NCBI RefSeq assembly: GCF_017979475.1
Contig: NZ_JAERIT010000004.1
Coordinates: 62,001 to 126,000, forward strand
DNA from: Helicobacter pullorum NCTC 12824
GTDB taxonomy: Bacteria > Campylobacterota > Campylobacteria > Campylobacterales > Helicobacteraceae
Reading direction: 5' to 3'
DNA length: 64,000 nt
The position numbers and the translations under genes were made by a program. The notes below the pieces were generated by a model. It had not been told where the DNA came from. It did no database searches and was given only the letters and a program-made list of their open reading frames with translations. Shown piece by piece: positions 9,503-51,088 of this stretch; position 1 is the stretch's first letter, and every line of letters begins with the position of its first letter.

Positions 9503-11551
9503 CTAAAAGCTAATTTCTCTAATATCAGCAATATTTAAAAAGGCTTGATAGATTTTTGCAATAAGATTCTTGCGATTATTTCTAAAATCTTCATCAGGGG
9601 CATTTACTAGGACTTTATCAAAGAATCTGCTAAGCAGAGGATTGAGGTCTAAAAGCATTTGTAGCTGCTCTTGATAATTAAGCGTTGGGGATTTTTCTTC
9701 ATAGAGGCAAAATGCTTTGTGAAGCTCTATTTCTTCTGTGGCTAGTAGCTTATTTTGTTTGATAGCTAAGCTAGAAGAGAGATTTACTTCTTTTGTGATA
9801 TTAGCCACTCTTTTGAAGGTTTGCATTAAAAGATTTTTATCTGCATTTTTGAGGACTGAATTTAATGCATCAAGTTTTTGGTAGATTTGCAATATATTTT
9901 TCTCATTGGTTGCCAAAATTGCTCGCAATAAAGAAGGATTGTAATCAAACATAGAATCCATTCTCTCTAAGATAAAATTTTCTAATTGTTGCAAATCAAA
10001 AGGCTTATAAAGAGGGCTTAAAAGTGAGGATATTTTTTGTAAATCAAAAGATAAATCAAAATGCAAAATAATTTTGATAATTCCTATAGCAGCGCGTCTT
10101 AAGGCAAATGGATCTCTAGAACCACTTGGGATTTTGTGGATACTAAAGAGTGCAAAGAGATTATCGAGTTTGTAAGCAAGTGCTACAAATGCACTAATAA
10201 GATTGCTAGGGAGAGGGCTTTCTTCGGAATTTGGTAAATATTGCTCTTTGATAGCAAGGGCTACTTTGCTATCATAGCCTAAAGCATTCGCATAATAATA
10301 TCCCATAATTCCTTGTAATTCGGTGAATTCATAAACCATTTCACTCATTAAGTCAGCTTTTGAAAACATGCTAGCTTGGTCAAGAATCTCCAAAGTTAGC
10401 CCAATATCTTGATTTTCTTTTTCAAGGTTTTTTGTGAAAAGTGGGGCAATTAGCTTGATGATTTGCCTTTCTCTTTGGGTTTTATCCCACATAGAGCCTA
10501 AGCCTTCTACAAAGGTTACATTTTTGAGTTTTTTTGGCATAAATCCATTTTTGAGATCATTGTGATAAAAGAAAAGTGCATCTTCTAATCTAGCACGCAA
10601 AACTTTGATATTGCCTTGGATAATGGCATTAGAATCTTGAGCTAGACTATTTGAAACCACAATAAAACCATTGTAGAGATTCTTGTCTTTGTAGGTTGCA
10701 AAGTAGCGTTGATTAACTTTCATAGAAGTAATAATGCAAGGAGCTGGTAGTTCTAAGAAACGCTCGCTAAATTCACCAAATAGAGCGGTTGGATATTCTG
10801 TAATGCAAACAATTTCTTCTAAAAGATTTTCATCAATTTCTACTTTGATATTTTTTTGGGATTGAATCTCTTGAATTTCTTGTAATATTTTAGTGCGTCT
10901 ATCTTCTTGATTAAGGATAACCATACCCCTTTTTAAGATTTCAAAATAATTATCAATGCTTGTAACTTCTTGTGGTGCAAAGCTAATATTTCTATGAATG
11001 AAAGTTTGGTTTTGGGATACTACTCCATAGAGATTTAGGCTAATTGGTGTGTTATTTAGCAAGCATAAAATCCAAGAGATAGGGCGGATAAAAGATTCTT
11101 TTTGGTCTCCCCAACGCATAGTCTTGCCAAAATTGAGTGATTCTAGAAATTCTTTTGTGATAGTTTGCAATAAGTCTTGTGCAGGTGCTTTTGGGGATTC
11201 TTTTTTGAAATAAAGAATTTCTTTGTTGTCTTTTGTGATTGTGCTTGCTTCTTTTTGAGTGATACCGCATTTTTTGAAGAAGCTTAGGGCAGCTTGAGTT
11301 GGATTGCCATCTTTATAAGCAATGGTGGTTGGCGGACCAAAAAATTCAAGCACTTGAGGGCTTTGTGAAGTTGGAAATTGATTTGCAATGATGACTAAGC
11401 GTCGTGGTGTATAGTAGAAATCAAAATCACACAATAAGCGATGATTTTGCAAAATTTTGCTTAATTTTTGTTTGATGTTTGGAATCTCTGCCAAAAGTGG
11501 GATAGCAGGAAGCTCTTGCGTTCCTATTTCAAGTAAAAAAGAAGTTGTCAT
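9503..11551 (-). CDS. glyS: Glycine--tRNA ligase beta subunit
   Basis: The 682-residue protein begins with the family hallmark SFLLEIGTQELPA. It continues through the tRNA-synthetase beta core (KTMRWGDQKESFIRP, FGEFSERFLELPAPCIITSMKVNQRYF) to SGSRDPFALRRAAIGI and a C-terminal DALR-like anticodon-binding domain with MVLVNAPDEDFR-type ending (VLVNAPDEDFRNNR). It pairs with the alpha subunit GlyQ, not in this window, to form the alpha2beta2 enzyme that charges tRNA-Gly. The length is usual for the family. The TrpC-like gene follows closely. Confidence 0.97.
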   Translation of the reverse strand: MTTSFLLEIGTQELPAIPLLAEIPNIKQKLSKILQNHRLLCDFDFYYTPRRLVIIANQFPTSQSPQVLEFFGPPTTIAYKDGNPTQAALSFFKKCGITQKEASTITKDNKEILYFKKESPKAPAQDLLQTITKEFLESLNFGKTMRWGDQKESFIRPISWILCLLNNTPISLNLYGVVSQNQTFIHRNISFAPQEVTSIDNYFEILKRGMVILNQEDRRTKILQEIQEIQSQKNIKVEIDENLLEEIVCITEYPTALFGEFSERFLELPAPCIITSMKVNQRYFATYKDKNLYNGFIVVSNSLAQDSNAIIQGNIKVLRARLEDALFFYHNDLKNGFMPKKLKNVTFVEGLGSMWDKTQRERQIIKLIAPLFTKNLEKENQDIGLTLEILDQASMFSKADLMSEMVYEFTELQGIMGYYYANALGYDSKVALAIKEQYLPNSEESPLPSNLISAFVALAYKLDNLFALFSIHKIPSGSRDPFALRRAAIGIIKIILHFDLSFDLQKISSLLSPLYKPFDLQQLENFILERMDSMFDYNPSLLRAILATNEKNILQIYQKLDALNSVLKNADKNLLMQTFKRVANITKEVNLSSSLAIKQNKLLATEEIELHKAFCLYEEKSPTLNYQEQLQMLLDLNPLLSRFFDKVLVNAPDEDFRNNRKNLIAKIYQAFLNIADIREISF

Positions 11552-44292: not shown

Positions 44293-46404
44293 TTAAAGAA
44301 GCATATCAGCAATTAAAGTCCCGATATAAGCGACAATGTAGGCAACAAAAGTTGTCATCAAGAAAAGATATACGATATATTTAAACCCTCCAGCTTCTTT
44401 GCCAAATACGACAGTGGCGGCAAGACAAGGATTATAAATCATAATAAACAAAATATAGCCGATAGCTACTTTTAAAGGAATGGTGTTTTTGATAGTTTCC
44501 ATTAATGCCGAGCTTGTTTCATCGACTTCACCACCAAGTGAATATAAAACTCCCATTGTGGATATGACGACTTCCTTAGCAGCAAGTCCGCTCGCTAATG
44601 CTACACTCATTTTCCAGTCAAAACCAAGTGGAGCGAAAAGCGGCTCTATGAATTGTCCGGTTTTGCCAAGGTAGCTATTTTCTATTAATTGCTCTTGAAG
44701 TTCAAATTCTAAGCTTTCTTTGGCTTCTTGTGTGGTGGCGGATTCTATTTTTTGTGCATAAGATTCTTGTAAATCTTTTTGGAGTGGAAAAGTGCTTGCA
44801 AACCAAATGAGAATCGTGGCAGCCAAGATAAAAGTCCCTGCTTTTTTGAGATACATTTTTGCTTTTGTGTAGATAGAAAACCATACAAGATTCCAATTTG
44901 GAATACGATATTTTGGCATTTCCATTACAAAGGGTTCATCAGCACCTCTAAAAACGCTTATGCGTAATATTTTTGCCATAATAAGTCCCAAAATAGCCCC
45001 CAAAATATAAATACCAAAAAGCCAATTTCCTGCTTGTTCTGCAGGAAAAAACGCACCAACAAAAAGCACATATACAGGCAATCTAGCACCACAGCTCATA
45101 AAATTAATAATAAAAAGTGTTAATAATCTATCTTTGCGACTTCTTAGGGTTCTTGTCGCCATAAATGCAGGCACAGAGCAACCAAATCCTGTAACAAGCG
45201 GAATAAAGCTTTTGCCATGTAAGCCAAATTTGTGAAAAAAGCCATCAAGCAAGAATGCCACGCGAGACATATAGCCGGTAGTTTCTAAAAGCGCAATACC
45301 AAAAAACAAAATAATAATATTAGGCAAAAACAAAATAACTGCACCTACACCACCGATGATTCCATCTGCTAAGAGCGAGGCAATGAGCTCATTAGAGACA
45401 TTGGCTTTGATTCCATCCCCGATAAAAGCAAAAAATTCCTCAATATACCCCATTGGAATATCGCCGAGCGTAAAAGTAAGCTGAAAGAGAAGCCACATAA
45501 GGAATAAAAAGATAGGGATTCCTGCGTATTTGTTGATGAGGATTTTATCTATGGTTTGTGTGTGGTTTCTTTTTTTGTTTTCATAACGCAATGTTTCGGT
45601 GGTTAGACCATTTACAAAGGCATTTAAATCTTCTAAGAAAATATCTTCACTAGATTTTGTATTGTAGATGATATAGAGATTGTTTAGGGATTCTTGCAAA
45701 ATGGGTGAGAGTTCCATCCAAATGGGCTTTTCGTGCAAGAAACTAAATAGCTTTTCATCTTGTTTGAGTAGCAAAATAGCAATATTGCGGTAAGAGAGGT
45801 TGAGGGATTGTAGATTTCTGTCATTTTTGGATTTCAAGAAATCTTCAAGTTTTAGTATTTCTGTTTCGATTTCATTGCTATAAATTCGTTTGTTTGGAAG
45901 TAGATTTTGTTTGTGTGTTTGTATGACTAAATCTAGCAATTCATTGAGATTTTGTTTGGTTTTTGCTGAAATTTGAATACAAGGAATGCCAATGAGATTT
46001 TTGAGTTCTTTTTGGTTGATATGCACCCCTTCATTTTCGGCTTCATCGCTCATATTGAGAGCTAAGATTATTTTTTTGGGTAATTCCAAAAGTTGCGCAC
46101 TAAGAAGTAGATTGCGTTCTAAATTAGTAGAATCCGCTACATTGATAATAATATCATACTCATCGCTTTCAATGAAGTTTTTTGTGATTTTTTCTTCTTC
46201 TGAATATCCATACAAAGAATAAGTCCCCGGAAGATCTATGATTTGAAATTCGTAACCTTTATAAATTGTTTTTGCTTGTGCCTTTTCTATGGTTACTCCT
46301 GTGAAGTTTCCTACTTTCATATTGGAGTGGCAAAGTGCATTGACAAGCAAACTTTTGCCGACATTTGGCTGTCCCACAAGTGCAATTTTGATAATTTTTT
46401 CCAT
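44293..46404 (-). CDS. feoB: Ferrous iron transporter FeoB
   Basis: The 703-residue protein has an N-terminal G domain (G1 GQPNVGKS at 10-17, G3 DLPGTYSL, G4 NMSD), a helical GDI-like spacer, and a membrane domain with gate motifs. FLLDGFFHKFGLHGKSFIP and GFGCSVPAFMATRT form the first gate, and SGLAAKEVVISTMG lies near the C-terminus. It imports Fe2+ through the inner membrane. It is coupled to feoA by a one-base overlap. A Fur-box-like palindrome lies upstream of the pair. Confidence 0.97.
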   Translation of the reverse strand: MEKIIKIALVGQPNVGKSLLVNALCHSNMKVGNFTGVTIEKAQAKTIYKGYEFQIIDLPGTYSLYGYSEEEKITKNFIESDEYDIIINVADSTNLERNLLLSAQLLELPKKIILALNMSDEAENEGVHINQKELKNLIGIPCIQISAKTKQNLNELLDLVIQTHKQNLLPNKRIYSNEIETEILKLEDFLKSKNDRNLQSLNLSYRNIAILLLKQDEKLFSFLHEKPIWMELSPILQESLNNLYIIYNTKSSEDIFLEDLNAFVNGLTTETLRYENKKRNHTQTIDKILINKYAGIPIFLFLMWLLFQLTFTLGDIPMGYIEEFFAFIGDGIKANVSNELIASLLADGIIGGVGAVILFLPNIIILFFGIALLETTGYMSRVAFLLDGFFHKFGLHGKSFIPLVTGFGCSVPAFMATRTLRSRKDRLLTLFIINFMSCGARLPVYVLFVGAFFPAEQAGNWLFGIYILGAILGLIMAKILRISVFRGADEPFVMEMPKYRIPNWNLVWFSIYTKAKMYLKKAGTFILAATILIWFASTFPLQKDLQESYAQKIESATTQEAKESLEFELQEQLIENSYLGKTGQFIEPLFAPLGFDWKMSVALASGLAAKEVVISTMGVLYSLGGEVDETSSALMETIKNTIPLKVAIGYILFIMIYNPCLAATVVFGKEAGGFKYIVYLFLMTTFVAYIVAYIGTLIADMLL

Positions 46405-46628
46405 TATTGTTTCTCCACTTCAATTGCTTTTGCTTCTTCTGTTCTTAAGATTATGCAACTTCTATCTAATTCTACGAGGATTGTAGAGCCTCCCAAAGAA
46501 GTTTCTAGTTTTTTAATCGGCTTGGATTTTGCAATTCCAAAGCTAAAAAATCTATCTTTTAATTGTTTATCCACTTTTAAACTCTTGATGATTGCAGATT
46601 CTCCATCTTTTAAGTCATTAATGGTCAT
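46404..46628 (-). CDS. feoA: Ferrous iron transport accessory protein FeoA
   Basis: The 74-residue protein is an SH3-like FeoA domain: LKVDKQLKDRFFSFGIAKSKPIKKLETSLGGSTILVELDRSCIILRTEEAKAIEV (in successive stretches). It regulates or assembles FeoB in the cytoplasm. It starts at the ATG at 46628, after an AAGGA ribosome site. It is the first gene of the feoAB operon. Confidence 0.92.
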   Translation of the reverse strand: MTINDLKDGESAIIKSLKVDKQLKDRFFSFGIAKSKPIKKLETSLGGSTILVELDRSCIILRTEEAKAIEVEKQ

Positions 46629-46697
46629 AAAAATCCTTTTATGAATTATTTTATCTGGTATTGTAAGATTAGTATGCTTGAAATAATATTAAAATTT

Positions 46698-46720
46698 ATT
46701 ATCATTTATAAAATAATGAT
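46698..46720. promoter_or_regulatory. Fur-box-like imperfect palindrome between feoA and the cas9 stub
   Basis: ATTATCATTTA is followed by the near-reverse-complement TAAAATAATGAT. This resembles a Fur operator (TAATAATnATTATTA in Helicobacter, GATAATGATAATCATTATC in general). Its place about 70-90 bases before feoA fits iron repression of feoAB. Confidence 0.5.
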
Positions 46721-46805
46721 TCTATGATACTTTTTGGATATTTAGGCGAAATTCTTTGTGTTTTTAAGTATAATAAATCAAAAATAAAAAAGGATTATTT
46801 AAATT

Positions 46806-47054
46806 ATGAAGATTCTAGGCTTTGATATTGGGATTGCCTCAATTGGCTGGGCATTTGTAGAAAATGGGGAATTAAAAGATTGTGGGGTGCGGATATTTAC
46901 CAAAGCAGAAAATCCCAAAACAGGAGATTCTCTAGCCCTCCCGCGTAGAGAGGCAAGAAGCACTCGCAAGCGACTTTCAAGACGCAAAAGTAGGCTAGAG
47001 ATGTCAAAAAGATTTCTTGCAAAAGAGTGGAGGCTATGCTATTATCTCATATAA
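46806..47054 (+). pseudogene. cas9: cas9 5' remnant (RuvC-I and bridge helix only), type II-C-like
   Basis: The 82-residue frame begins [19 protein letters not shown], the RuvC-I motif with its catalytic Asp (residue 7). It continues with [27 protein letters not shown] and an Arg-rich bridge helix ([11 protein letters not shown]), strikingly like Campylobacter jejuni and Helicobacter type II-C Cas9. Similarity stops near residue 74 (FLAKEW), then a short unrelated tail and stop. All other Cas9 domains (REC, HNH, RuvC-II/III, PAM-interacting) are missing, and the next gene is an unrelated alkyltransferase. I see no cas1, cas2, repeats or tracrRNA. It is a truncated relic, although the start and ribosome site (AAAAGGA) look intact. 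Confidence 0.9.
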
Positions 47055-47134
47055 TTTTTATTTATGGACTATAAAAAGCGAGTATAACACACTACAAGAT
47101 TCAAACATATTTTTTAAGATTTGAAGGAAAAATC

Positions 47135-47659
47135 ATGGTATACACTACTTTTTACAAAAGTCCTATTGGTACAATACTTTTAGCAAGCAAAGATAATAAG
47201 CTTATAGGTTCTTGGATAGAAGGGCAGAAATATTATTTAGGAAATCTTAAGGAATCTCCACAAGAAAAAGACGATGAACCTATCTTATTACAAACTAAAA
47301 TATGGTTAGACAGGTATTTTAATGGAGAACAGCCTCATACTTTTGAATTAGACTTGGCACCTAATGGAAGTGTATTTGCTACAAATGTGTGGAATATACT
47401 ACGTCAAATTCCTTATGGAGAAGTTATCACATATGGAGACATAGCAAAAAAAGTAGCACAAATAGCACACAAAGATACAATGTCAGCCCAAGCTGTTGGT
47501 GGGGCAGTGGGGCATAATCCTATTTCTATTATTATCCCTTGTCATAGGGTTGTAGGCACAAATGGGAGTATGACGGGTTATGCAGGAGGAATAGAGAGAA
47601 AAATACAGTTATTGCAACACGAAGGCGTGAATCTTAAATCCCTGCAAACCAAAAGATAA
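47135..47659 (+). CDS. ogt: Methylated-DNA--[protein]-cysteine S-methyltransferase (Ogt/MGMT)
   Basis: The 174-residue suicide repair enzyme has the active-site IIPCHRVVGTNG, the preceding helix-turn-helix segment YGEVITYGDIAKKVAQ, and TGYAGGIERKIQLLQHEG at the end. It removes alkyl groups from O6 of guanine. It stands alone 80 bp after the cas9 stub, as if it replaced the rest of that locus. The gene is not universal in Helicobacter and may have been acquired; that is inference. Confidence 0.94.
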   Translation: MVYTTFYKSPIGTILLASKDNKLIGSWIEGQKYYLGNLKESPQEKDDEPILLQTKIWLDRYFNGEQPHTFELDLAPNGSVFATNVWNILRQIPYGEVITYGDIAKKVAQIAHKDTMSAQAVGGAVGHNPISIIIPCHRVVGTNGSMTGYAGGIERKIQLLQHEGVNLKSLQTKR

Positions 47660-48043
47660 CCCATTTTGCATAATTTTTGAGAATTTATAAATGTTTGGCG
47701 AGTAAAATCAGACTTTGGGCTAATTTAAAATAATAATTTTAAGATATTTGGGTATTATTTTAGAGATAAAATTTGCAAATAAAAAGATAAATTTATGCAA
47801 TAAGGCATTGCGTAGGATTGCAGGATATATAAAGCTTTAGTTTTGATAGAAAAAGGCTGTATTGATTTTGTAAATGTAGAAGATTTTGTGGTGCAAGATT
47901 TAAGAAATAAAGGATAAAAGAAATTTAGAGGGGGTTTGAAGGTTGAAAGAAATTGCTTTGGAAAATGTTTGAGTTTCTTGGTGTATTTGCAAGAAAGATT
48001 GAAATCTAAAAATATATTCAAGAGGGCTTAAAAGGAGTAAAAG
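47660..48043. other. 384-bp gap with possible gene debris
   Basis: No convincing gene is present. An open sense stretch without a start codon, ending ...EDFVVQDLRNKG (about 47823-47918), looks like the C-terminal end of a lost gene, and another open stretch runs up to putP. I recognise no family. An 88-codon frame on the minus strand (47755-48021) has an unlikely composition. A GGAG-type ribosome site for putP lies at the end. Confidence 0.4.
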
Positions 48044-49834
48044 ATGGAAGTTGTGAGTATAAATATACCTATTGCTGTGATGTTTATTGCTTATTCTGCA
48101 TTAATGCTATTTATTGGTTTTTATTTTTATAGGCAAAATAAAAGCACTGAGGATTATTTCCTTGGTGGTCGCTCTATGGGTCCTGTGGTTTCTGCCCTAA
48201 GTGCTGGAGCTTCGGATATGAGTGGGTGGCTACTTATGGGTTTGCCCGGGGCGTTGTATGTGAGTGGGTTTATGGATAGCTATATTGCCATAGGATTGAC
48301 AATTGGGGCGAGTTTGAATTGGATTTTTGTCGCTAAGAGGCTTAGAATCTACACAAGCGTGGTGTCAAATTCGCTAACTATTCCAGATTATTTTGAGACG
48401 CGATTTAGTGATGATAAACATATTTTGCGTGTGGTTTGTGCTGCAGTTATTCTCATTTTCTTTACCTTTTATGTTTCATCTGGGCTTGTGAGTGGGGCGA
48501 AACTTTTTGAAGAAGTTTTTGGCATAAGGTATGATTATGCCCTTACTACTGGGACTTTTATCATTGTGGCTTACACCTTTTTGGGTGGATATAAGGCGGT
48601 TTGTTGGACGGATATGATTCAAGGCTTGTTGATGATATTGGCACTTGTGGTGGTGCCAATTGTGATGTTTTTGCAGCTTGGGAGTTTTAAGGAAGTGGCT
48701 TCTTATATTGCACATTCTGATGAATCTAGCAAAAAAATCGTTCAAATTCAAAATGATATTCCAAATATTTTAAAAAATATCAAAAGCGTAGAATCTCAAG
48801 CAAAGATACAAGTGCTAATTGAAAGCCTTAATGAAACACAAGATAGAAGCATTAGCTCTGCTAAACTTGATGAAAAGCTCAAAATGGATTTGCAGATTCA
48901 AGCATTTTTCAACAATGATTTAAGCACAGCAATATTTTCAAGGGATTTTGCAAAAAGGCTTAGTGAGGCTTTGGGGGCTAATGACTTTGCTAGGCTTGAA
49001 AATCTTCTTGCTGCTTGGCAACACATTCCTTTTGTGGCAAAGGATCGTTTAAGTTGGTTTAGTGGCGTTTCACTTGCGGGGATTATTTCGGCACTTGCGT
49101 GGGGGCTTGGGTATTTTGGGCAGCCTCATATTCTGGTGCGATTTATGTCAATTCGCTCGACTAAAGATATTCCCGCAGCGACTTTTATCGGCATAGCTTG
49201 GATGGCGATTTGTCTTATTGCTGCTTGTTTTATTGGTATGCTTGGCGTGGCGTATGTCAATAAATTTAATCTTTCTTTGCAAGATCCCGAGCGCATTTTT
49301 ATCGTGATGTCCCAACTGCTATTTAACCCTTGGATTGCTGGAATCTTGCTTAGTGCGATTTTGGCGGCGATTATGAGCACGGCTAGTTCGCAGTTGCTTG
49401 TCTCTAGCTCAACGATTGCAGAAGATTTTTACAAAAAGATTTTCAAGCAAGAAGCCTCAGAAGCAATGGTGTTAAGGCTGGGCAAAGTCGGAGTGCTTGT
49501 AGTGGCACTTATTGCCTTTGTTATCTCCACGGACAAAAATTCTAGTGTGCTAAGCATTGTGGCTTATGCGTGGGCTGGGTTTGGAGCAAGTTTTGGTTCA
49601 GTAATGCTTTTCTCGCTCTTTTGGAGTAGAATGACAAGAATAGGTGCGATTGCTGGAATGATTAGCGGTGCGGTTGTTGTGGTGGCTTGGAAACAGCTTT
49701 TTGCCGATACAGGTGTGTATGAGATTATTCCGGGATTTGTGGTGGCATCTTTGGCGATTATTATTTTTAGTCTTGCAAGCAAAGTGCGAGATGGCACCAA
49801 AGCTGCCTATAACAAAATGTTAGAAAATCTCTAA
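48044..49834 (+). CDS. putP: Sodium/proline symporter PutP with large internal insertion
   Basis: The 596-residue SSS-family transporter shows [36 protein letters not shown] (in two stretches), a typical N-terminal sodium-site region, and [21 protein letters not shown], the second sodium site. It imports proline with Na+. Compared with the usual ~500 residues, an extra helical, charged stretch of about 110 residues (about 223-335) lies between TM6 and TM7, just before [11 protein letters not shown]. Codon use is more GC-rich than its neighbours. Proline utilisation partner putA is not in the window. Confidence 0.92.
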
Positions 49835-49887
49835 GATTTGGAGTAAGTTTGCTATAGAATCTCACTTGTTAGCTTTGAGTAGGGCTA

Positions 49888-50520
49888 TCACAGCCCTATC
49901 ACGCCAACCCTCTGCTTAGAGTATGTAGAATCTAGTGCGATTTCTATCATCGCTATTGCATAATCTGCATAGCTTATTTTAGATTCGCCCTTGCTATTTA
50001 GCTCAAATTCTTCGCCGATGATTTTGTATTTGCCACTTTTTAGTGCATCTGGGATAAATACCTCTGGTGGGCTGACATACACCCAATTTATGCCCTTTGA
50101 TGCTTTTATCACATCAAAAGCCTCTGTGGTAGCCCTCGCCACAGGCAGATATTCTTTTGGGAAATCTGGCGTATCCATAAGCATTGTGGTATGACTTGTA
50201 TCCATATACAGACTACCTGCACCGCCCACTACTAAGAATTTCGCACTATTGCCTGATAGAATCTGCACCAAATGCTCCATATGGGCTTTGTGTAAGCTAA
50301 GATTTTGCCATTCACCAAAGGCATCGATTATCACATCAAAGCCTTGCAAATCGCTAGATTCTAAGGTAAAAATATCTTTTTGCACCACGCACACTTTGCT
50401 ATCAAATCGTGCTTTACTAGAATCTCGCACAAAGGCACTAACCTCTAAGCCCTTATTTATGGCTTCCTCTACGATTAACTTCCCTGCTTTGCCATTTGCG
50501 CACAAAACTGCTATTTTCAT
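49888..50520 (-). CDS. NAD(P)-binding Rossmann-fold oxidoreductase (atypical SDR, YwnB-like)
   Basis: The 210-residue protein has the N-terminal dinucleotide motif AVLCANGKAGKLIVEEA (GxxGxxG-like), FDVIIDAFGEW, LVVGGAGSLY and a C-terminal SYADYAIAMIEIA segment. This is the NAD(P)H-binding/NmrA-like atypical SDR type often paired with HxlR regulators. It may reduce quinones or electrophiles; the substrate is unknown. It is divergent from the hxlR-type gene, with a palindrome in the gap, which suggests control by that regulator. Confidence 0.85.
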   Translation of the reverse strand: MKIAVLCANGKAGKLIVEEAINKGLEVSAFVRDSSKARFDSKVCVVQKDIFTLESSDLQGFDVIIDAFGEWQNLSLHKAHMEHLVQILSGNSAKFLVVGGAGSLYMDTSHTTMLMDTPDFPKEYLPVARATTEAFDVIKASKGINWVYVSPPEVFIPDALKSGKYKIIGEEFELNSKGESKISYADYAIAMIEIALDSTYSKQRVGVIGL

Positions 50521-50617
50521 AGTCTATCCTTTATAATAAATTTTGCTTTCAAAAAGCACATTGGAATGATAATAGAGTAAGTTGTAAAATTCAAGTAGGA
50601 ATAATTTTGTAATGTAG

Positions 50618-50634
50618 TAGTATTTTTAATACTA
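50618..50634. promoter_or_regulatory. Palindrome in divergent oxidoreductase/HxlR gap, likely operator
   Basis: TAGTATT-TTT-AATACTA is a perfect 7-bp inverted repeat with a 3-base centre. It lies between the divergent start codons (50520 and 50747). HxlR-family dimers bind such AT-rich palindromes, so autoregulation plus control of the oxidoreductase is plausible. Confidence 0.5.
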
Positions 50635-50746
50635 TTGTGTAAATATGGAGTTTTGTTGATAAAAATTTTTCAAAATTTTAGAGTGTTATGTAGAGATTTT
50701 ACGAAAATTTGCTAGAATCTAAGCATAACTTCATAAAGGAATCATT

Positions 50747-51088
50747 ATGACAAAATATCATTCGTCCTGTCCGGTTGAGACTACGCTTAATCTCATCGGC
50801 AATAAATGGAAATTCCTCATTATCCGCGATTTATTAAGCGGGACAAAACGCTTTGGAGAATTAAAGAAAAGTATTTCAGCAACCAAAAATCAAACCATTT
50901 CACAAGCGGTTTTGACACAGAACTTGCGAGAGCTAGAGGAAGCAAAGATCCTCACGCGCAAAGTCTATGCAGAAGTCCCACCAAGGGTGGAATATGCCCT
51001 AACGTCACTAGGGGAGAGCTTGAAAGAGATTTTAGAATCTCTTGCTATGTGGGGCGAAAAATACAAAAATAAAGAAAATCTAGCCTAA
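50747..51088 (+). CDS. HxlR family transcriptional regulator
   Basis: The 113-residue winged-helix protein has the HxlR hallmarks: SSCPVETTLNLIGNKWKFLIIRDLL with Cys near position 6, GTKRFGELKKSI, ISQAVLTQNLRELEEAKILTRKVYAEVPPRVEYALT and a SLAMWGEKY tail. The N-terminal Cys is often the electrophile or redox sensor. It likely represses or activates the divergent oxidoreductase at 49888-50520. An AAAGGA site precedes the ATG. Confidence 0.93.
   Translation: MTKYHSSCPVETTLNLIGNKWKFLIIRDLLSGTKRFGELKKSISATKNQTISQAVLTQNLRELEEAKILTRKVYAEVPPRVEYALTSLGESLKEILESLAMWGEKYKNKENLA

Follow-up and report, generated by a model that had tools for sequence, protein, structure and literature searches.

A short cas9 5′ fragment beside ogt in Helicobacter pullorum, probably imported from another Helicobacter lineage

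Cas9 nucleases combine three RuvC segments with an HNH domain. Among described proteins, the element reported here resembles CjCas9 (PDB 5x2g; TIGR01865), of type II-C. Passages of two studies of Campylobacter jejuni and C. coli (PMC4607530, PMC8743540) describe the type II-C systems of these species as patchy, being absent or incomplete, with cases of cas9 lacking cas1 and cas2, of interrupted genes and of replaced loci. Unlike the loci in those passages, the one analysed here holds an 82-codon cas9 stub lying beside ogt. No published report of such a stub was found among the titles and abstract beginnings listed from the open-access literature.

The stub lies in a stretch of 64,000 nucleotides of Helicobacter pullorum DNA, analysed as a whole and referred to below as the window. 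The features of the segment are given here in order; G022 stands for the uncultured Helicobacter A38 bin.23, with its contigs after the colon.

44293-46404, minus strand, feoB (name by eye), native left flank
46404..46628, minus strand, feoA (name by eye), native left flank
46720..46808, plus strand, AT-rich DNA that includes the hexamer TATAAT and also AAAAAGGA, from the sequence; no clear G022 match
46806..47054, plus strand, stub ORF, 82 amino acids, ATG start, stop TAA at 47052-47054
46809..47042, plus strand, cas9 5′ fragment, 95.3% identical to the intact cas9 of G022:C25
47046..47134, plus strand, ogt upstream DNA of the G022:C18 type, seemingly the source of the stub TAA; 47046-47070 is a gapped alignment
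47135..47659, plus strand, ogt (O6-methylguanine-DNA methyltransferase), both Pfam Ogt domains
47660..48028, no strand, stretch without a long ORF; no convincing match in the relatives' loci compared
48044..49834, plus strand, putP-like sodium/solute symporter gene (name by eye), native right flank
49801..51057, no strand, third G022-like patch, matching G022:C38 at 93% over 49801-50718 and 85% over 50744-51057

Identity of the stub

Comparison with PDB sequences by phmmer gave Cas9 (5x2g) as the best match to stub residues 2-79 (E 8.3e-32), and 28 of the 29 PDB sequences among the matches listed are Cas9. Against the NCBIfam Cas9 model TIGR01865 the stub scored 81 bits (E 5.5e-23), the model's cut-off for full-length proteins being 100; residues 47-65 matched the Pfam bridge-helix model (Cas9-BH) at E 0.017, under that model's cut-off. 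Alignment to other Cas9 proteins, of the kind that the original prediction had suggested as a check, shows the Arg-rich bridge helix kept in the stub. The catalytic Asp of RuvC-I (Asp7) is found in the stub and in all 43 aligned Cas9 N-termini, short relics being left out. The 43 are non-redundant rows, each holding 95 or more open residues. G022 is among them, as are the relics of two further genomes (G038 and G037), some frameshifted genes and several sequences, few in number, from outside the family. Residues 2-79 represent a genuine N-terminus of a type II-C Cas9, made up of RuvC-I with Asp7 and the Arg-rich bridge helix. The original prediction had read all 82 codons in this way, and the phmmer and TIGR01865 results bear it out except for residues 80-82, which are not Cas9 and which, together with the stop codon, appear from the alignment to derive from ogt-side DNA. 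Another RuvC-like family was considered for the stub and rejected, the RuvC resolvase model PRK00039 giving E 0.076 as against 5.5e-23 for Cas9.

The rest of the protein is missing. A full-length Cas9 query against the H. pullorum genome (G000; 1.7 Mb, 93% complete) returned a sole match, to residues 4-82, at the stub, and a query with residues 701-1148 of the G022 Cas9 gave no match; RuvC-II, HNH and RuvC-III are missing. Two of the three RuvC segments of a Cas9 nuclease are thus lacking along with HNH and, unlike in CjCas9, about 93% of the protein is gone. Lacking RuvC-II, RuvC-III, HNH, REC and the PAM-interacting part, it could not cut DNA in the manner of Cas9. A Cas1 query found nothing in the same 93% complete genome, an empty answer that by itself is no proof of absence, and no G022-type CRISPR repeat was found in the window at up to 9 mismatches of 36. 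The earlier statement that the Cas9 3′ part, the adaptation genes and the repeats are gone is consistent with these searches, which covered the genome for Cas9 and Cas1 and the window for the G022-type repeat. No Rfam families or tRNA genes were found in the window.

Mobile elements were considered as carriers and rejected: the stub matched seven plasmid records and one phage record, each at 49-52% query coverage and 48-63% identity, with no near copy among them. None of 110 candidate stretches in viral contigs held a relative of the stub.

The start codon, ribosome-site-like motif and reading frame of the stub are intact, as had been described. The purine-rich AAAAAGGA sits 5′ of the ATG, and the AT-rich stretch at 46720..46808 is a possible promoter and ribosome site for the stub. 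Over 46600-48060, promoter-like sites number 8 as against 7.5 in shuffled sequence, showing no enrichment. Similarity to the G022 cas9 starts at stub codon 2; the start and the ribosome-site-like motif, like the upstream region, differ from those of that gene, a point against the import favoured below. The motif AAAAGGAT precedes one of 49 window ORFs (non-overlapping, at least 120 amino acids, ATG start), and motifs like AAAAGGAT also precede some same-genus cas9 genes. As a mark of a native cas9 start, AAAAGGAT was judged suggestive only.

DNA shared with A38 bin.23, the joins and the feoA-putP site

A38 bin.23 falls in the same family as H. pullorum and in a different genus-level group. Its cas9 is intact at 1148 codons and lies on L030, which is identical with contig G022:C25. 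Downstream of it come ORFs resembling cas1 and cas2, which were named by position and by eye and match cas9-adjacent ORFs in other genomes. The locus has at least nine repeats of 36 bases each, spaced 66-67 bases apart. The likeness of this gene to the stub extends over 234 bp. Unlike the stub, the G022 cas9 is whole, has other upstream DNA, begins with MHTKILG and sits on a contig apart from the organism's own ogt (C25 and C18, respectively).

The ogt gene, correctly predicted to lie 80 bp downstream of the stub, is likewise close to G022: positions 47071-47638 are 97.5% identical to G022:C18, and no Ogt protein of the same genus is more than 57% identical to the window Ogt. A second ogt was not found in the H. 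pullorum genome. The third patch (49801..51057) consists of two pieces that lie 1.5 kb apart in G022:C38. By eye, it carries a gene for an NAD(P)-binding-like protein and one for an HxlR-type regulator-like protein, placed between putP and a citE-like gene. In three same-genus genomes (G006, G014 and G018) the citE-like gene follows putP within 27 bases, so these genomes lack the third patch; G004 has 450 bases between the two genes, and its match extends about 100 bases beyond putP. The cas9, ogt and third-patch pieces belong to three G022 contigs, yet lie within 4.2 kb in the window. Outside them, those parts of the window between 40001 and 60000 that match G022 are 66-77% identical to it. 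A DNA scan of 121 family genomes, with three candidates scored per genome, found close matches of at least 100 bases to the region in G022 only; matches of this length in genomes other than G000 and G022 were 65-80% identical.

At the middle join, the cas9 match stops at 47042, at about codon 79. Opening an 8-base gap carries the ogt-side match to CTCATATAA (47046-47054), three bases from the cas9 end; the CTCATATAA end of this gapped alignment is short, at nine bases. We infer from the alignment that the cas9 piece was fused almost directly to ogt-upstream DNA, and the stub TAA seems to have been supplied by the ogt side. At the right join the ogt match stops at 47638, about seven codons short of the window stop, and the last Ogt residues differ from those of G022.

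Both flanks are native. The left flank, from 44308 to 46711-46719, is collinear with G014, G018 and G006 at about 78% DNA identity, and from 48029 onward the window is 78-79% identical to G004, G006, G014 and G018. The distance from feoA to putP is 1.3 kb in the window as against 16-21 kb, on one contig, in G006, G014 and G018. In these relatives (L149, L151, L152) the interval contains partly different genes, by eye restriction-modification genes, guaA and putA; the putA-like and guaA-like genes are missing from the window interval, 46629-48043. The content and length of the feoA-putP interval thus vary between genomes. The original prediction had proposed looking here in sister genomes for a complete cas9-cas1-cas2; in the same-genus relatives G006, G014 and G018 no cas9 was found between feoA and putP, and their sole cas9 match is elsewhere. 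In G014 it lies at 1557160, with the feoA-putP site at 1279358-1297638, and in G006 and G018 it is on other contigs than the site. Since cas9 lies elsewhere in all three, the stub is not at the relatives' usual cas9 place.

Origin and fate of the stub

Most probably, a non-functional piece from the 5′ part of cas9 reached this genome by horizontal transfer from a G022-related Helicobacter, as one component of a patchwork to which ogt also belongs. The import into the variable feoA-putP site would be recent, and its G022-like pieces would have been put together with little homology or none, either already in the donor or in the course of DNA uptake. Natural competence occurs in Helicobacter. 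The stop codon would have been gained by chance from the ogt side, and the short ORF, even if expressed, would be inert and starting to decay. If any part of the import was selected, it would presumably be ogt, which of the two adjoining pieces is the one that might be of use. The likely direction of transfer is from the G022-like lineage to H. pullorum; a third lineage could have been the source for both. Since synonymous divergence from G022 is unequal (dS 0.029 for ogt and 0.118 for the cas9 piece), the two pieces may stem from separate events or donors. A full cas locus may also have been imported at the site and have collapsed later. At this variable site, short patches of DNA that a second Helicobacter lineage also carries have been brought together. 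The locus further illustrates that imported debris, while still young, can look like a cleanly open cas9 stub; an open frame alone therefore shows neither function nor the loss of a local CRISPR locus.

In a second reading, a whole G022-like locus of cas9, cas1, cas2 and array once stood at this site and one deletion joined codon 79 to the ogt-upstream DNA. The place of cas9 at the head of its operon is in keeping with this, downstream loss leaving an N-terminus, and so are the N-terminal-only relics known in G038, G037, G131 and G025, the last still lying 5′ of a 26-repeat array. However, the three same-genus relatives have no cas9 at the site, the genome searches turned up no further cas9 part or cas1, the window holds no G022-type repeat, and ogt and cas9 are on different contigs in G022. 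We regard an in-place deletion as unlikely. The original prediction of a recent deletion scar stands as to recency, the DNA being near that of an intact G022 cas9; as to a deletion from a local locus, the three relatives and the two G022 contigs speak against it.

Retention of the stub as a functional micro-protein is unlikely. The form of this idea that we weighed, in which the RuvC-I strands and the bridge helix form a small peptide that binds nucleic acids or that lures away an AcrIIC2-type anti-CRISPR as a decoy, has a very small chance of being right. The intact frame, start and ribosome-site-like motif, the conserved Arg-rich helix and the few changes in codons 2-66 agree with it, and 6jdj_C is a Cas9 chain of 78 residues. 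If functional, the stub would to our knowledge be the smallest known Cas9-derived protein. What makes a decoy role conceivable is the crystal of Nme1Cas9 with AcrIIC2 (PMC6594998), in which residues 16-77 were the sole part of Nme1Cas9 seen bound, digestion having removed the remainder. Against this, no Cas9 was found in the genome that a decoy could protect, the open frame is likely to occur by chance at the present divergence, and changes at conserved positions fit best on the stub branch. The relics in other genomes, moreover, vary in length and neighbours and two lack the bridge helix, so they define no common retained unit.

The substitution pattern bears on this directly. The stub differs from the G022 cas9 at 11 of 234 bases and at four amino acids (dN 0.028, dS 0.118), a ratio that says little on the stub itself because two branches contribute to it, one of them that of an intact cas9. 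In a neutral simulation with substitutions and no indels, the frame stayed open in 67% of runs at 11 changes and in 80% at 6; the open frame is therefore weak evidence of selection, and a clean frame, which had seemed odd for old debris, is what would be expected. Among neutral runs free of stops, four or fewer amino-acid changes occurred in 2.9% at 11 substitutions, the mean being 7.5. The differences are concentrated at the 3′ end, with 4 of 195 bases in codons 2-66 and 7 of 39 from codon 67 on (p 0.0004, for a cut picked post hoc). Constraint on the N-terminal part, codons 2-66, could account for this, though the intact G022 branch shares the low count and the DNA upstream of ogt is unusually diverged too, differing from G022 at 9 of 64 bases, with ogt itself at 5 of 504. 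The stretch around the cas9-ogt join is thus unusual on both sides; joining by an error-prone process, a different allele in the donor or a loosening of constraint may each have produced this.

Serine 67, phenylalanine 70 and arginine 76 of the stub occur in none of the 43 other Cas9 N-termini, and G022 has the common Leu, Leu and Gly at these positions. From the alignment, the changes L67S, L70F and G76R fit best on the stub branch; position 24 of the stub holds the commonest residue. As a point on the other side, private residues number more than three in 14 of the 43 other N-termini and exactly three in two, mostly divergent Cas9s, several of them intact. Derivation of the stub end from another cas9 allele was rejected, residues 67, 70 and 76 fitting none of the 43. 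For the retained peptide of the original prediction, the balance is unfavourable: an open frame is expected in young sequence and conserved positions have changed, codons 2-66 leaving some room.

A wider version of the functional idea holds that Helicobacteraceae preferentially keep Cas9 5′ ends, RuvC-I and the bridge helix being useful as an RNA- or anti-CRISPR-binding peptide that spreads with ogt-like neighbours. We find this highly improbable. Across the 121 family genomes there are five N-terminal-only relics (in three genomes without a C-terminal match, and as second copies in two) versus no C-terminal-only relic, a count obtained with two queries that differ in length and conservation. 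No special function is needed for this bias, because cas9 is first in its operon and downstream loss leaves N-termini.

Finally, a chimera of assembly or binning, with stretches of cas9 and ogt from a G022-like organism misjoined into the contig, is barely credible. The presence of pieces from three contigs of one other genome within 4.2 kb would fit it, but these fall short of full identity to G022 (95, 97.5 and 93%), the genome yielded no further ogt, and the two flanks are oriented to each other as in the relatives.

Cas9 relics elsewhere in the family

The stub protein matches 47 of the 121 family genomes and residues 701-1148 of the G022 Cas9 match 46. G000, G037 and G038 match the N-terminal (stub) query only. 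Two genomes, G021 and G033, match the C-terminal query only; their matches lie in ORFs of 1339 and 1248 codons and are not C-terminal-only relics. The cas9 genes of G018, G140 and G122 are frameshifted and nearly whole.

N-terminal-only relics cover codons 4-106 in G038, 6-280 in G037, 4-28 in G131 and 4-26 in G025. Like the stub, each keeps the 5′ end of cas9 and lacks what should follow; unlike it, they have other lengths and other neighbours, and the G025 relic has lost the catalytic Asp and sits 5′ of an array. G131 and G025 have an intact cas9 in addition to the short relic.

In G038, the matched codons occupy 10896-11291 of the complement of L110, inside an ORF of 131 codons, and neither cas1 nor cas2 was matched in 19 kb. 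In G025, L155 (G025:C72) carries between 5170 and 7213 a 26-codon cas9 relic about 280 bp 5′ of an array with 26 copies of a 36-base repeat, at a spacing of 65-67 bases. Between relic and array, an anti-repeat-like stretch was noted by eye, a possible tracrRNA. The intact cas9-cas1-cas2 of this genome is on another contig (L171, 13.3 kb), which lacks the L155 repeat; the L155 array may be served in trans or may be dead. In G131, a relic of about 28 Cas9 codons lies at 4654-4749 of L154, preceded by a ribosome-site-like motif, and an intact cas9-cas1-cas2 is present elsewhere in the genome.
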